The notes beneath the pieces are model-generated. The model was not told the DNA's origin. It was given only the letters and a program-made list of their open reading frames with translations, and searched no databases. 64,000 bases of DNA from Streptomyces sp. PCS3-D2 (GTDB lineage Bacteria > Actinomycetota > Actinomycetes > Streptomycetales > Streptomycetaceae), in assembly GCF_000612545.2 (NCBI RefSeq), contig NZ_CP097800.1, positions 6,874,001 to 6,938,000 on the forward strand, read 5' to 3'. Position numbers and translations under genes: made by a program. Shown piece by piece: positions 42,076-49,434 of the stretch. How positions within the stretch are numbered: the stretch's first letter is position 1; each line of letters begins with the position of its first letter.

Positions 42076-42513
42076 ATGTCCGAACTGGTGGCGACCGCCG
42101 CTGTGATCGCGCCCTTCGTCAGCGCGGCCGCGGCATCCATGGCCCATGCCCTGGTCGATTCCGCACAGACCAGGCTCGCGGACGGCGCGGTCGAGCGGGG
42201 GCGGCAGCTCCTGGACAGAGCACTGCACCGCGGCGACGACCAGCTCACCGGCCGTGACAGCGACGCCGTCCGGGCGATCGAGGCCCTCTCCCGGGACGAA
42301 CGCGAGCTCCTGGAAGGGGCGATCGGCCGGTGGCTGGGAGACGGCACCGATCTGAGCGCCCGAGCCCTGGAGCGGCAGATCAGCGAGGCCGGCCCCGCGG
42401 CCAAGCGGTTCCACGTCGCCACCTACGGGAACAACTCGCCGGCGATCGGCGAGGCGGCCGAGGTCACCTTCACCTTCAACACCGCGCCGGACCCGGGCAG
42501 CGCCGGAAAGTGA
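42076..42513 (+). CDS. Bell/HeLo-like helical protein with C-terminal amyloid-type motif (candidate cell-death effector)
   Basis: 145 residues. The N-terminus is a hydrophobic helix (ELVATAAVIAPFVSAAAASM), followed by amphipathic helices to about 108. The last 35 residues switch to a short beta-prone segment, HVATYGNNSPAIGEAAEV then TFTFN (about 113-135). This layout, a small helical bundle with a membrane-prone first helix and a C-terminal G-[ND]-N-S-P-A-I-G motif, resembles Bell-domain effectors that carry BASS or RHIM-like prion motifs. GGGAGGAACC precedes ATG 42076. The next gene overlaps it (GTGA) and carries the same motif. Effector function is inference; no catalytic site is seen. Confidence 0.6.
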   Translation: MSELVATAAVIAPFVSAAAASMAHALVDSAQTRLADGAVERGRQLLDRALHRGDDQLTGRDSDAVRAIEALSRDERELLEGAIGRWLGDGTDLSARALERQISEAGPAAKRFHVATYGNNSPAIGEAAEVTFTFNTAPDPGSAGK

Positions 42514-43250
42514 GCGGCAACCCGGCGGGACGGCACAGCGCTCAGACCCGAGGAGACAACTCACCGGCGATCGGCTTCGTCGGCAAGCTGTTCCTCAGCG
42601 TCCTCGTCGGTGACGTCGTCGAGTTCGCCGACCGGGCGAAGCGCTGGGGCGGCTGGAACTGGCCGCCGTTCCTGCTCGTCGTCATGCTCGACGGCTACGC
42701 CCTGATCAGCGCCCCCGCCGGTCCACCGCACCAGTTCCTCTCCGTGTATCTCGCGATCGCCGGTTCGCTCGTCCTGGCGCTCGCCCGGCTGGCCCACCCC
42801 AGGAGCGACAGTCCGGCCCGGCACTGGCGCGTGCTCATCTCGGCCGCCGCCGTGATGCTCGCGGTCGCCGCCACGGTCGGCATGGACCACCTCTCCGATC
42901 ACGGCGAGAAGGACGTCACCGGCCGCACCAGTCTGACACCGCCCGGCGAGGTCACGCCGGGCTCCGAACTGACGCTCGTCGTCGCGGGCCCCACCGACCG
43001 CGCCCACCTGCGGCTGAAACTCACGATCTCCGACGCCCATCCGGATCGGGGGTTCTGCGATCCGGAGACCCACTACGCCGCTCAGCTCCGTGACCGTGCC
43101 GCCACCCGGGTCAAGGAGATGCGCAGCGGCCGGACGGCCGACTTCCCGCTGGGTGGTCTCCAAGGCCGGATCGAAGTGCAGATCACCCTGTGGGCCGAAG
43201 AGGGGTGCCGGATGAACGTGTCCGTCGCCGAAGCCGTCCTGCACGACTGA
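42510..43250 (+). CDS. Three-helix membrane protein with N-terminal NSPAIG motif and extracellular domain
   Basis: 246 residues, start GTG 42510 overlapping the upstream stop (GTGA), so translation is coupled. Residues 14-22 read RGDNSPAIG, nearly identical to the motif ending the upstream protein. Helices lie at about 52-69, 75-95 and 107-124. The basic loop ARLAHPRSDSPARHWR between helices 2 and 3 places the N-terminus inside and the C-terminal domain (about 130-246) outside. That domain is beta-rich (ELTLVVAGPTDRAHLRLKLT) with two Cys that could pair. It looks like a membrane adaptor joining an external sensor to the cytoplasmic motif protein. No known family recognised. Confidence 0.6.
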   Translation: MSGNPAGRHSAQTRGDNSPAIGFVGKLFLSVLVGDVVEFADRAKRWGGWNWPPFLLVVMLDGYALISAPAGPPHQFLSVYLAIAGSLVLALARLAHPRSDSPARHWRVLISAAAVMLAVAATVGMDHLSDHGEKDVTGRTSLTPPGEVTPGSELTLVVAGPTDRAHLRLKLTISDAHPDRGFCDPETHYAAQLRDRAATRVKEMRSGRTADFPLGGLQGRIEVQITLWAEEGCRMNVSVAEAVLHD

Positions 43251-43259
43251 GAGGATCCC

Positions 43260-44171
43260 GTGCCCGCCACGTCCCCGAAGCCACCCCCGTCCCTCCGGCA
43301 GCCCGGCCGGATCGGCAGGTCGGCCGCCGTCCTGGCCCTGCTGCTGAGCCTCGCCTCGTGCTCCTCCGAGGAACCCGAACCGGAATTCCTCGGCATGCCG
43401 CGCATCACGGTCGCCACACACAACGACCTGCCAGGCATGTCGTACTCCGAGAACTACGACCGCTCCGGACTGGACTTCCTCGTCTTCCAGCACGTCAAGG
43501 AGGAACTCCACCCCGTCCCCTTCACCGATCCCTTGGACGTCGCCTCGGGTGGCAGGGTCACCCAACTCCGTGAGGAAAGGGCCGACATGGTCATCGCCTC
43601 GTTCTCCATCACGGCGGAGCGGATGAAGCTGATCGATTTCGTCGGGCCCTATCTCAAGACCAGGCAGGGGTTTCTCGTCGGTCCTGACAGTGCCCACGTA
43701 CAACACCTCTCCGATCTCAGCGGCATGAGGATCTGCACCTGGGAAGGGACCACCTCGAAGGAAGCACTGGACGACATCGAGAACACCGTCCACGCCGAAC
43801 CGGTCGTCCTCACCGACGCCTCGGACTGCATCGAGCAACTCCTCGCCCACGAGGTACAGGCGGTCTCCACCGATCAGACGATCCTCTACGGCTTCGCCCG
43901 GCACTACGAGGACGACGGGCTGCGCGTCGTCCCCGACGCGACCATCGGGACGCCGCAGCACTACGGGATCGGCCTGCCGAAGGGGCACCGGAAGGACTGC
44001 CGGAAGCTCAAGGACTGGCTGAAGGAATATGTCGGCACCAGCACCTGGACCCGGGACGTGGAGACCTCCCTGCCCGCTCTCACCGCTGCGGACACGGGCT
44101 GGATCAGCAAGCACAAGCCGAGCGAAGCGGAGATCGAAGCACGCACGTGCCGCGACGGCATCAGCCCCTGA
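43260..44171 (+). CDS. Solute-binding lipoprotein (SBP_bac_3, amino-acid type) without transporter genes
   Basis: 303 residues. The lipobox LLSLASC places the lipidated Cys at 34, so the protein is anchored outside the membrane. The mature part follows the family 3 pattern: PRITVATHNDLPGMSY, LREERADMVIASFSITAERM, KLIDFVGPYLKTRQGFLV, LSDLSGMRICTWEGTTSKEA, and a C-terminal PKGHRKDCRKLKDWLKEYVG. ABC permease and ATPase genes are absent; instead it follows the three-helix protein by 9 bases. It is therefore likely a ligand sensor working with that protein. GAGAGGATCCC precedes GTG 43260. The 3' end overlaps the amidase by 11 bases. Confidence 0.82.
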   Translation: MPATSPKPPPSLRQPGRIGRSAAVLALLLSLASCSSEEPEPEFLGMPRITVATHNDLPGMSYSENYDRSGLDFLVFQHVKEELHPVPFTDPLDVASGGRVTQLREERADMVIASFSITAERMKLIDFVGPYLKTRQGFLVGPDSAHVQHLSDLSGMRICTWEGTTSKEALDDIENTVHAEPVVLTDASDCIEQLLAHEVQAVSTDQTILYGFARHYEDDGLRVVPDATIGTPQHYGIGLPKGHRKDCRKLKDWLKEYVGTSTWTRDVETSLPALTAADTGWISKHKPSEAEIEARTCRDGISP

Positions 44172-46548: not shown

Positions 46549-49434
46549 TCATTCGACTCGGGGTAGGACGCGCGCGCGGAGTCCGCCGCGGGCCCGGCCC
46601 GACGACGCGGGCCGGGACCGCGGCGGGCGCTCTTCGCCCCGGGCCGCCAGCCAGCGCTGGAGCTCCGCGTGCCGGAACTGCCACGAGACGCCGTGGACGC
46701 GCAGCACTCCCGCCCGGTGTCCCCAGTCGAGGAACGCCGCGACCTTCCAGGGAAGCAGGCCGCGCCGCTTCATCATCGTCATGGCGATGACGTACCGCAG
46801 CCAGCCGATCAGTCCCACGGCGAAGGCCGCGAAGAAGCCCACGGCGGCCCCGAAGGCCGCACCCGACAGGGGCGCGTAGTCGACCAGCCAGAAGACGACC
46901 GCGCCCGTCGCCGCTCCCGCCAGCAGTCCCAGAACGTCCCACAGCCAGTAGTAGGCCGGGAAGAAGTTGCCGCTCAGGGTACGGTCCAGTCCGACCTTGG
47001 CCTCCATGCCATACCCCAGAACCACCAGGATCACCGACCCGACGACGAGTCCCGCGAGCGGGCCGAAGAGCAGGAACGTGCCCAGGCCAAAGGCCAGGCC
47101 GATGGCTCCGCCGATCTCCAGGCCCGACAGGATGCTCAGCGGCAGGCGGGACCGTTTGGGACCCGTGAAGCGTTCACGCAGGCCTCGCGTACGGCGCTTG
47201 ACCACCGGCACCCACGTCCGCGGCGCCATCCCTGTCGCGGCGGCTGCCACGATGACGACGACGCTGAAGACGGCGGCCGCACACACTCTGCGGCCTGTCG
47301 TGCCCGACAGATCGGCCGTCCCGTCGATCAGGCGCCCCGCCGTGGCCACGGCGTTGCCGGGCCCCCCGACGGCAGCCAGCACACAGGCCACGCAGAAGAA
47401 GAGCACGATCCCCACGTGCGCCACCGCCTGCACCGCGCGTACCCGCCTCTCGCCCGCGATGACCCACATGCGGCTGAGGGTGAGGTCCTCGGACGTGTGA
47501 CGGCCGAGGTGCCGGGCCAGCACCGCCAGCCACCGCACGGCCGTCGGCGCGTCCGGCGGACGGGGTTCGGCCACCACGGCGTCCGAGCACGCGGCCGGGA
47601 CGAAGGCTGCCAGGAGCCGCTCGTGCAGTGCCTCGTCCGCGCCGTCGCCCGTGCGCACCAGGGCGCTGACCAGTTCCGGGACCGGCACCTGGGGGCGAGG
47701 CCCTGCGACCGCCTTGACCGCCAGTACGAGCTTCCAGGGGGAGTCCAGGCGGCGGGCCGCGGTGCTTCCCTCATCGAGCCGCAGATCGGCGCGCAGCGCC
47801 TCCCACTCCTCGCCGGCCGGGTAGCCCGGGATCCCGTCGGTCAGTGCGCCCACGATCTCCGGAACGGACAGTCGCTGCATCTCCACCACGCATGCCGAGG
47901 ACGGACCGGGCCGCAACTCATCGTCCCCCGTACCGAGCATAGTGACAACCACGGGGGCGGGTCGGCCGCTGGCGGCTGTCAGATAGCGGTCGATGGCCGC
48001 CACGAGGTATCCCGCAGGCCCGTCCGCCTCGGCCTCGCGGGGTGTGTGCACCTCGTCCAGTCCGTCGAGGACCGGAAGGAGCCAACGCCCCTCGACCAGC
48101 TCCCTCGCGGTCTGTGCGTCGTCGCACAGCTTCTGCCCGAGTAACTGGCCGACGAGCCAACCCTCGAAGTGCCGTACGAGACGGTCGTAGCCGGCCTGCG
48201 AGCCGTCGGGCCTGGACTCGACGGGTGGGGTACGCCAGTTGACGAGGGTCAGCAGCACGGGCACCGGCTCGTCCTTCGCACGGCTCTCGAGGAGTTCGGT
48301 CGCGAGGTGTACGGCGAGCACGGTCTTCCCCGACCCGGCGGGCCCCCGGACGACGAGGCGGCCGTCCGGGATCGCGTCGTAGAAGTGCCGCACGGTCGCG
48401 TACGCCGCCCGGTTGGGGACACCCGCGCGCACGTCCACGGTGGTGTAGCCGACGTTGATGGCGTGCAGTCCCGCATGGGCCCCGATGCCGGATTTGGACA
48501 GCGCGAACCGTCCGACGTGGCGGGTGGACCTCTCGTGCAGGCGGCCGAGCGCATCCTGCAAATGGGCGGGGGCGACGGGCAGCACCCGGCGTTCCCGGAG
48601 CAGTGCGCTGCCGAGATCCCGTTCGGAGCCCGCGAAGCTGCGGTTGCGGATGCTCACGGGCGTCTGCGTGATGTCCGTGGCCCGAGCGGGGTCGGAGAAG
48701 TACCCGTCGACCCGCCGGGTGAGTTCCTCCACGTCCGGCGGGAGAATGCGCGGGCGGGAGCGGAGATGGCGGAGCACCTGCTGGGCGAACTCGGTCGTGC
48801 CGCCCCCAGAGTCGTTGATGGCTCCCTGCCCGTCGCGGCTGGCGAACAGGACGTACTGGTCCACCTCCTTGTCGGACAGCTCGCCCTGCGGGAAGAGCCG
48901 GGGCACCGGTTCCCGTTCCCGCCGCTTCAAGTACCAGCCGCAGGTGTCGACGATGAAGATCTGCCGGGTCAGTTCGAGGTGGTCCTCGTCCTCGCAGGCC
49001 AGGTAACGGCGCAGGTCGTCGAAGAGCATGCTCTGCGGGTCGCGCTCGGTCGACTCGGAGAGGACGAGGTGGCGCTTCATGGTCGAGGGCGCGATCACAC
49101 CGTGGCCGCCCCAGTACGTGAAAAGCAGCCGGTGGGCCCGGTCGAGTCCGGTGAACGTCTTCCGCACGAGGTCGGCGGTGGCCGGAACGACGGACAGGCC
49201 CAGGCCGGCTGCCCGTGCGGCTGCCTCCGAGGCGAAGTCGCGGGTCGGGGCGAGCAGCAGGGTGATGTTCTCCGCGGGGACGCCACAAGCCCGCAGCCAC
49301 TCCGCGAAGCACAGCGCGTCCCGGGCCGGCCCGGGAAGTTCGCCGTACGCGTCACCGTCCGCGTAGACCTCGATGCCGACAAGAGCGGCCGCGACCCCTG
49401 CGGGATCCACCGGCCCCCCGTTCAACCGATCCAT
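46549..49434 (-). CDS. Caspase-NACHT-transmembrane STAND protein (bacterial NLR-like)
   Basis: 961 residues. The N-terminal caspase-like domain (about 15-260) has the dyad His111 in TYWGGHGV and Cys165 in FIVDTCGWYL. A NACHT/STAND NTPase follows with Walker A VVRGPAGSGKTVLAV (about 362-375) and Walker B LLPVLDGLDEVHTP (about 452-465). Six hydrophobic helices lie at about 671-690, 717-734, 773-790, 791-808, 828-850 and 857-880. A C-terminal tail, LLPWKVAAFLDWGHRAGVLR and SWQFRHAELQRWLA, recurs in Streptomyces NACHT proteins. Such proteins act as switches where ligand sensing triggers oligomerisation and effector proteolysis. Its start overlaps the hydrolase stop by 13 bases. Trigger and protease targets are unknown. 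Confidence 0.85.
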   Translation of the reverse strand: MDRLNGGPVDPAGVAAALVGIEVYADGDAYGELPGPARDALCFAEWLRACGVPAENITLLLAPTRDFASEAAARAAGLGLSVVPATADLVRKTFTGLDRAHRLLFTYWGGHGVIAPSTMKRHLVLSESTERDPQSMLFDDLRRYLACEDEDHLELTRQIFIVDTCGWYLKRREREPVPRLFPQGELSDKEVDQYVLFASRDGQGAINDSGGGTTEFAQQVLRHLRSRPRILPPDVEELTRRVDGYFSDPARATDITQTPVSIRNRSFAGSERDLGSALLRERRVLPVAPAHLQDALGRLHERSTRHVGRFALSKSGIGAHAGLHAINVGYTTVDVRAGVPNRAAYATVRHFYDAIPDGRLVVRGPAGSGKTVLAVHLATELLESRAKDEPVPVLLTLVNWRTPPVESRPDGSQAGYDRLVRHFEGWLVGQLLGQKLCDDAQTARELVEGRWLLPVLDGLDEVHTPREAEADGPAGYLVAAIDRYLTAASGRPAPVVVTMLGTGDDELRPGPSSACVVEMQRLSVPEIVGALTDGIPGYPAGEEWEALRADLRLDEGSTAARRLDSPWKLVLAVKAVAGPRPQVPVPELVSALVRTGDGADEALHERLLAAFVPAACSDAVVAEPRPPDAPTAVRWLAVLARHLGRHTSEDLTLSRMWVIAGERRVRAVQAVAHVGIVLFFCVACVLAAVGGPGNAVATAGRLIDGTADLSGTTGRRVCAAAVFSVVVIVAAAATGMAPRTWVPVVKRRTRGLRERFTGPKRSRLPLSILSGLEIGGAIGLAFGLGTFLLFGPLAGLVVGSVILVVLGYGMEAKVGLDRTLSGNFFPAYYWLWDVLGLLAGAATGAVVFWLVDYAPLSGAAFGAAVGFFAAFAVGLIGWLRYVIAMTMMKRRGLLPWKVAAFLDWGHRAGVLRVHGVSWQFRHAELQRWLAARGEERPPRSRPASSGRARGGLRARVLPRVE

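Follow-up and report, generated by a model that had tools for sequence, protein, structure and literature searches.

A three-gene operon of Streptomyces sp. PCS3-D2 as a candidate NLR-free relative of Bell/BASS signalling systems

Three adjacent genes, here called genes 1, 2 and 3, were analysed at positions 42,076 to 44,171 of a 64,000-nucleotide stretch of the Streptomyces sp. PCS3-D2 genome (contig NZ_CP097800.1, positions 6,874,001 to 6,938,000). This stretch is referred to as the window, and positions given without a locus number (L) are its own. The operon is probably an NLR-free relative of the Bell/BASS signalosome, in which an external and probably amino-acid-like ligand would lead to motif-templated activation of a Bell-type protein. 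Gene 1 (42,076-42,513, start ATG) encodes a 145-residue Bell-type protein with a hydrophobic N-terminal segment and a C-terminal motif. Gene 2 (42,510-43,250, start GTG) encodes a 246-residue candidate membrane receptor or transmitter with a related motif in a predicted cytoplasmic tail and a predicted external C-terminal domain, and gene 3 (43,260-44,171, start GTG) encodes a 303-residue amino-acid-type solute-binding lipoprotein. All three lie on the forward strand. An earlier reading of the letters alone, referred to as the sequence-only reading, had described three tightly packed genes, the first two overlapping by GTGA and the last two lying 9 bases apart, and its coordinates were confirmed: genes 1 and 2 share the 4 nucleotides GTGA, an overlap of the same length is kept in 28 of 35 operons, and genes 2 and 3 are spaced by 9 nucleotides.

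Covariation of the paired motif

The motif was located by sequence reading and by a genome pattern search as GNNSPAIG in gene 1 (42,427-42,450, forward strand) and GDNSPAIG in gene 2 (42,552-42,575, forward strand), which are separate stretches of DNA and not a single overlap read twice; six of seven core residues are identical between the two proteins. A degenerate NSPAIG pattern had three exact matches in the 7.6-Mb genome, two of them in this operon, and the reversed pattern had none. The sequence-only reading had built the operon on a shared NSPAIG motif; the presence of a motif in both genes stood, whereas NSPAIG turned out to be the form taken in one clade by a rapidly evolving motif about 20-25 residues long. 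The motif varies strongly among subfamilies, and it does so in genes 1 and 2 together. The S. pacificus pair reads GNNSQAIG in gene 1 and GDSSQAIG in gene 2, so that P has become Q in both by one base per gene, and a long conversion tract is unlikely there because the Ser codons TCG and TCA remain different between the genes. Other parallel pairs are HGPNSPAIG in both genes of L059, GRHAVAVGQ and GRWVTAVGQ in genome G032, GFGYVH in both genes of L049, HTGSG in both genes of L054, and TSYGDRTINGGTFGD in both genes of L063, where 20 of 24 residues are identical.

Covariation was measured in 28 of the 37 operons, kept below 75% gene 2 identity. Each gene 1 C-terminus was scored against its own gene 2 N-terminus and the scores were summed; for operon pairs, the sum of the two own scores was compared with the sum after the partners were swapped. 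The own pairs summed to 1569, whereas 20,000 permutations had a mean sum of 815 and a highest sum of 1084. Of 378 operon pairs, 372 had a matched sum above the swapped one, 2 a lower and 4 an equal one. Four control regions stayed near parity, with 200/159, 154/202, 151/204 and 213/149 pairs higher/lower out of 378. A single ancient copy followed by independent divergence would be expected to leave matched and swapped sums equal on average. When two further operons, not subject to the identity filter, were added, matched sums were higher in 427 of 435 pairs and lower in 3. The sequence-only reading had proposed covariation between genes 1 and 2 as a check, and covariation is what was found. 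That the motifs are kept alike while both change suggests, from sequence comparison, direct contact or shared assembly of the two proteins, and by analogy with BASS3 an amyloid form of that assembly is likely.

Gene 1 and the Bell-type proteins

Residues 4-22 of the gene 1 protein have a mean Kyte-Doolittle hydropathy of 1.90 and contain no charged residue, which bears out the hydrophobic N-terminus read earlier. The window protein had no Pfam, NCBIfam or PADLOC match, 34 gene 1 relatives gave just scattered weak matches in Pfam and NCBIfam (one or two members each), and nothing convincing was returned by searches of the Protein Data Bank with genes 1 and 2. A profile of 34 gene 1 proteins matched at E <= 0.01 in 84 of 393 Streptomyces genomes, and 20 loci with such matches, hand-picked and mostly from the second tier, were examined. 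In 15 of these the gene 1-like gene is followed by a same-strand gene of more than 400 codons. The other five are L125 and L126, which are two further operons of genes 1, 2 and 3; L108, where no gene 1-like gene was called; L111, where the next gene is on the opposite strand; and L124, where the next gene encodes a 350-residue protein that Pfam did not match at E 0.001. Seven of the large neighbours were scanned: six matched NB-ARC/NACHT at E < 1e-3, three of these above the Pfam cut-off, and the neighbour at L109 gave only TPR repeats in the Pfam scan.

With the motif region removed, the gene 1 domain matched all of 17 Bell-type proteins (L125 and L126 were omitted) with E values no higher than 1.4e-7, compared with 0.35 for the top-scoring shuffle or unrelated gene; since the proteins had been picked by a gene 1 profile, this result speaks of domain homology and not of frequency. 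On sequence comparison, the N-terminal domain of gene 1 is homologous to small Bell-type proteins encoded beside NB-ARC/NACHT receptor genes, which favours the kinship to Bell effectors proposed by the sequence-only reading. The label Bell-type is used here on the basis of arrangement and homology, not of a published Bell profile.

The Bell-type proteins share motifs with their NLR genes as well (e.g., ITASGERSIAAQHIRTAITGD/IEASGGRAIGAQRIRDAYTGD), and matched sums were higher than swapped sums in 88 of 105 NLR-side pairs (15 lower, 2 equal), which served as a positive control for the pairing method. When the motifs of 14 NLR-side Bells were made into a profile, 10 of 56 operon termini scored E < 0.01, as against 0 of 560 shuffled sequences; misses of this profile on the gene 2 side say little because several gene 2 tails were badly cut. 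RHIM, BASS3 and PP motifs have a core of the V-Q-V/I-G type. By eye this core is absent from the window's motif, and VQIG/IQIG is present in one NLR-side pair, that of L109. A tree of gene 1 and NLR-side Bell proteins required one label change at low support (83/33), and it is silent on how often the receptor was swapped because the NLR-side rows came from the gene 1 profile and support was low.

A second gene 1-like protein was noted at L124 (4432-4959, contig 17 of genome G199), with a motif nearly that of L058 in the same genome and no adjoining receptor gene; it is a possible second effector for a single receptor.

Receptor and binding lipoprotein

The gene 2 protein had only sub-threshold matches in Pfam and NCBIfam and none in PADLOC. 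Family scans found in it neither an NTPase domain (NB-ARC/NACHT) nor a match to the CHASE3 or four-helix domains of GlnX. The three membrane helices of the sequence-only reading were retained as a prediction: residues 52-68 (42,663-42,713) were picked out visually in the sequence and in the family alignment, residues 76-94 (42,735-42,791) and 108-126 (42,831-42,887) were marked by a hydropathy scan, all on the forward strand, and the same scan marked residues 19-37 and passed over 52-68. Among 28 gene 2 relatives, the scan marked three segments in 12, two in 9, four in 3 and one in 4; the shortest proteins, those of L067 and L069, may have one real membrane segment. In the 12 relatives with three segments, the loop between the second and third has a net charge of +2 to +12. 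With a positive inner loop, the expected orientation is the same for one helix as for three: the motif is predicted to lie inside the cell and the C-terminal domain outside. This predicted external domain (42,888-43,247, forward strand), delimited from the family alignment and the hydropathy scan, contains Cys183 (43,056-43,058) and Cys233 (43,206-43,208). Across an alignment of 27 sequences Cys233 is invariant and Cys183 is at least 90% conserved, and every one of the 28 relatives has two cysteines after its last marked segment.

Gene 3 was assigned to SBP_bac_3 by family scan (E 1.8e-14), and its best match among solved structures was GlnH of Mycobacterium tuberculosis (E 1.3e-20). A lipobox, LASC, was read at 43,350-43,361 (forward strand), where the sequence-only reading had also placed one. 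Of 56 gene 3 relatives, 41 fitted a simple lipobox pattern; several of the misses are shortened starts or variant boxes, and the gene 3 proteins of L014-L016 have a membrane anchor and no clear lipobox Cys. Arg121 (43,620-43,622, forward strand) occupies the position of the carboxylate-binding Arg of amino-acid solute-binding proteins (SBPs), and Asp205 (43,872-43,874, forward strand) that of the Asp binding the amino group. With duplicates included, 52 of 56 relatives have R and 2 have K at the former position, and 55 of 56 have D at the latter. Because both residues are conserved, the ligand is likely to be amino-acid-like. No ABC permease or ATPase gene was found among the scanned genes flanking the operon in the window, in agreement with the earlier description of gene 3 as an amino-acid-type binding lipoprotein without transporter genes.

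Distribution, remnants and module exchange

Searching with the gene 2 sequence alone recovered few relatives, in 2 of 61 genomes including the window's own, and three loci in a further search of this kind, so that profiles were needed. A first gene 2 profile, built from five proteins, matched 36 of the 393 Streptomyces genomes, the window's own included. In 29 of 29 loci examined within the genus a gene 3 relative adjoins gene 2, and a gene 1 profile match precedes gene 2 in 24 of the 29, with a diverged gene 1 read by eye in one more (L035/L054); the synteny on which the sequence-only reading had staked its proposal is therefore present. A wider gene 2 profile matched 31 of 200 genomes of the family, weak matches included, in 4 of 17 genera, and operons with gene 1 were found in two genera of the family besides Streptomyces, namely g18 (L060) and g27 (L063, L067 and L069). 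A class-wide gene 2 search matched 13 of 296 genomes. Nine of these are in Streptomyces; of the other four, three are weak (E 1.6e-4 to 4.2e-4) and the sole believable relative outside the family (genome G802, L075) is without gene 1. Two weak matches, L076 (G390) and L077 (G488), were dropped for want of an SBP gene alongside. No gene 2 relative was found in plasmids at E 1e-3 or in viral contigs. The operon is patchy, and the form containing gene 1 was seen, within the genomes searched, only in this family.

Motif presence in receptors was scored with shorter termini against the gene 1 motifs of the operons, each operon's own partner being excluded. At the 99% shuffle level, the motif was present in 1 of 12 loci with genes 2 and 3 and no gene 1, as against 21 of 30 loci with gene 1 (Fisher 4e-4); at the 95% level the counts were 3 of 12 and 24 of 30 (Fisher 0.0014). 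The single locus without gene 1 that reached the 99% level, L071, is by eye a Pro/Asp-rich match. Intermediate loci were left out (L039, L047 (partly masked), L061, L064, L065, L073 and L074). Two of these, L061 and L064, scored 46 and 48 in a first test in which the 99% shuffle level was 58, raised by glycine/proline-rich tails, and several gene 2 tails were miscut; counting them as loci without gene 1 would weaken the contrast. Receptors without gene 1 are thus mostly without the motif.

Several of the intermediate loci were inspected individually. In L061 (3580-3780) and L064 (4900-5050), from two genomes of another genus, gene 1 is cut by an internal deletion and genes 2 and 3 are still open. 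In L039 (5896-6729, genome G377) the receptor tail reads NSVSGGQQQGGVTQAHTVNN, and the similar locus L045 does have gene 1; the partner of the L039 receptor may lie elsewhere in the genome. In L065 (4345-5515) the gene before the gene 2-gene 3 pair encodes another kind of small hydrophobic protein, which has a Gly/Ser-rich tail and may be a further type of effector.

Directly upstream of genes 2 and 3 in L074 is a gene for a trypsin-like protease with EAD2 (Trypsin_2 3.9e-8, EAD2 8.5e-6, both above cut-off). The L074 gene 2 protein begins with a long region for which Pfam gave no match above its cut-off; a comparison of protease and receptor found no common sequence, and Pfam found EAD in the protease only. 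The Streptomyces plasmid NZ_CP108083.1 (L131, 1191-4292) encodes a fusion of caspase, nSTAND1, transmembrane (TM) and SBP_bac_3 parts that adjoins an EACC1 protein. With the gene 1 operons, these make at least three arrangements, and such SBPs are therefore joined to cell-death-type effectors (gene 1, protease-EAD2 and caspase-nSTAND1). Plasmid proteins of 625 and 631 residues with SBP_bac_3 on the C-terminal side were also noted (L132, 2319-4196; L133, 2283-4178), that of L132 having by eye an N-terminal region like a DNA-binding domain and a membrane helix.

In the window, the operon stops at gene 3, and the gene that comes next lies on the other strand. The operon's neighbours encode a hydrophobic protein (no Pfam match at E 0.001) and an amidase. 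Another conflict-type gene was noted close to the operon at 46,549-49,434 on the reverse strand; its 961-residue product has a NACHT domain (E 1.9e-6), C-terminal hydrophobic segments, and an N-terminal region that by eye resembles a caspase-type peptidase and is without a Pfam match.

Proposed mechanism and alternative explanations

In the proposed mechanism, gene 3 would bind a small ligand outside the membrane, most likely an amino acid or derivative, and in its ligand-bound or ligand-free state would contact gene 2 at its external domain with the two cysteines. Gene 2 is predicted to be oriented with its N-terminus in and its C-terminus out, so that the tail would lie in the cytoplasm. Clustering or rearrangement of gene 2 would gather the tails into an ordered, probably beta-arch and possibly amyloid assembly, which would template the matching C-terminal motif of gene 1. 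The hydrophobic N-terminal segment of gene 1 would then act at the membrane, and the cell would be killed or arrested, presumably through membrane damage.

Several observations weigh against this proposal. No clear copy of EVTFTFN, the latter half of the motif in the window's gene 1, is present in gene 2, and the profile of 14 NLR-side Bells fails to match the end of the window's gene 1. Covariation is weaker among close operons, with 26 of 30 pairs higher at 50% gene 2 identity or more (1 lower, 3 equal), and nine close pairs in the unfiltered set are negative (L006, L007 and L010 with L012 or L013; L014 with L015 and L016; L023 with L029). The own partner ranks first in only 15 of 28 operons, because sister operons share motifs, and the pair counts are not independent because operons share ancestry. 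Short gene conversion, rather than selection, could be the source of part of the concerted change. L061 and L064 retain the receptor motif beside a shortened gene 1, L039 has a motif-like tail and no adjoining gene 1, and the gene 1 calls of L048 and L057 lack the hydrophobic N-terminus, perhaps through a wrong start choice.

The most ordinary explanation would be an orphan amino-acid-binding lipoprotein next to two unrelated small genes, the likeness of the motifs being due to chance or to a neutral tandem copy. The shortness of the window's motif core, at six of seven identical residues, would allow it, but the excess of matched over swapped pairs with controls near parity, the L063 motifs, alike in 20 of 24 residues, and the constant adjacency of genes 2 and 3 speak against it; it is already contradicted, on sequence grounds, by covariation across diverged operons, and we give it hardly any weight. 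A nutrient sensor of the GlnH-GlnX-PknG kind, in which gene 3 would sense amino acids, gene 2 transmit and gene 1 be a small motif-docked regulator, with neither cell death nor amyloid, would accord with GlnH being the closest solved structure to gene 3 and with the lack of a PADLOC match in genes 1-3 at E 0.01. This reading appears unlikely: no PknG-type or other kinase gene was found among the scanned window neighbours, gene 2 lacks the GlnX domains, homologues of gene 1 are encoded next to NLR genes, two other arrangements link such a receptor or SBP to protease-type effectors, and presence in 36 of 393 genomes of the genus is unlike that of a core nutrient sensor.

The logic might also be inverse. 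Gene 2 would use the paired motif, as a lock and not a seed, to restrain gene 1 at the membrane in an inactive state, and ligand binding or loss (e.g., nutrient exhaustion) would release it. The paired motif and the gene order are equally compatible with this arrangement, and a receptor that keeps its motif beside a shortened gene 1, as in L061 and L064, fits an inhibitor that outlived its effector. In homologous Bell/NLR pairs, however, one partner is understood to template the other, and BASS3 fused to GFP gives foci in a fungal host (PMC7889193, PMC9815663); Gly/Asn-rich, beta-prone motifs would likewise fit assembly. We regard a lock as improbable, and templated activation of gene 1 remains the preferred reading.

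A wider idea is put forward tentatively, with somewhat less confidence than the reading of the operon itself: multicellular bacteria may have surface death receptors in which a ligand, a lipoprotein, a membrane protein and a Bell killer are linked by prion-like templating without an NLR. The modules (Bell, trypsin-EAD2 and caspase-STAND) would be exchanged, and each motif pair would form a private channel insulated from NLR/Bell channels. The question whether NLR-independent signalling amyloids exist in fungi and bacteria is raised in a review of amyloid signalling, which describes the searches made so far as biased to NLR/executor architectures (PMC7889193). The present family is a concrete candidate for such signalling. 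If the proposal is true, regulated cell death in bacteria gains a defined external input, and dozens of paired motifs become material for measuring how specificity between prion-like channels evolves.

Comparison with known systems

Bell/BASS systems of multicellular bacteria are described as small effectors whose C-terminal motif is paired to the N-terminus of an adjacent NLR (PMC7889193, PMC8086366, PMC12261475, PMC9815663). The operon resembles them in its small protein with a hydrophobic N-terminus and a C-terminal motif, in the related and covarying N-terminal motif of an adjacently encoded partner, and in the homology of the effector domain to NLR-side proteins. It differs in that the partner is a predicted membrane protein with an external binding lipoprotein and no NB-ARC/NACHT domain, so that the input would lie outside the cell and no nucleotide switch would be involved. 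A literature search, which covered neither the primary paper of Dyrka et al. 2020 nor most subscription journals, found no description of a Bell/BASS pair with a membrane receptor or SBP.

Experimentally supported signalling from an SBP to a membrane protein is reported for GlnH-GlnX-PknG of mycobacteria and corynebacteria, where GlnX of Corynebacterium glutamicum has 501 residues, an all-helical fold, four membrane helices and two periplasmic domains (PMC6069109, PMC9769921). In both systems a lipoprotein resembling GlnH shares its operon with a membrane transmitter and an output component inside the cell. In contrast to GlnX, gene 2 has 246 residues, three predicted segments and a two-cysteine external domain, and the output is a Bell-type protein instead of a kinase. 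The two-gene EACC1 conflict systems include members with TM helices and an extracellular periplasmic-binding-protein (PBP) domain, according to Kaur et al. 2020 (PMC7159879), and the use of such a domain in a conflict-type system is shared; those parts are fused and accompanied by EACC1, whereas three separate proteins joined by a paired motif are found here, and a family scan found no EACC1 domain in genes 1-3. With fungal HET-S/HELLP and animal RHIM systems the likeness is one of logic only, a receptor motif templating a membrane effector; receptor, motif and effector all differ, and no sequence relation is claimed. Thus the effector type and the pairing logic are known, and what is new is the receptor and the side of the membrane from which the input comes.

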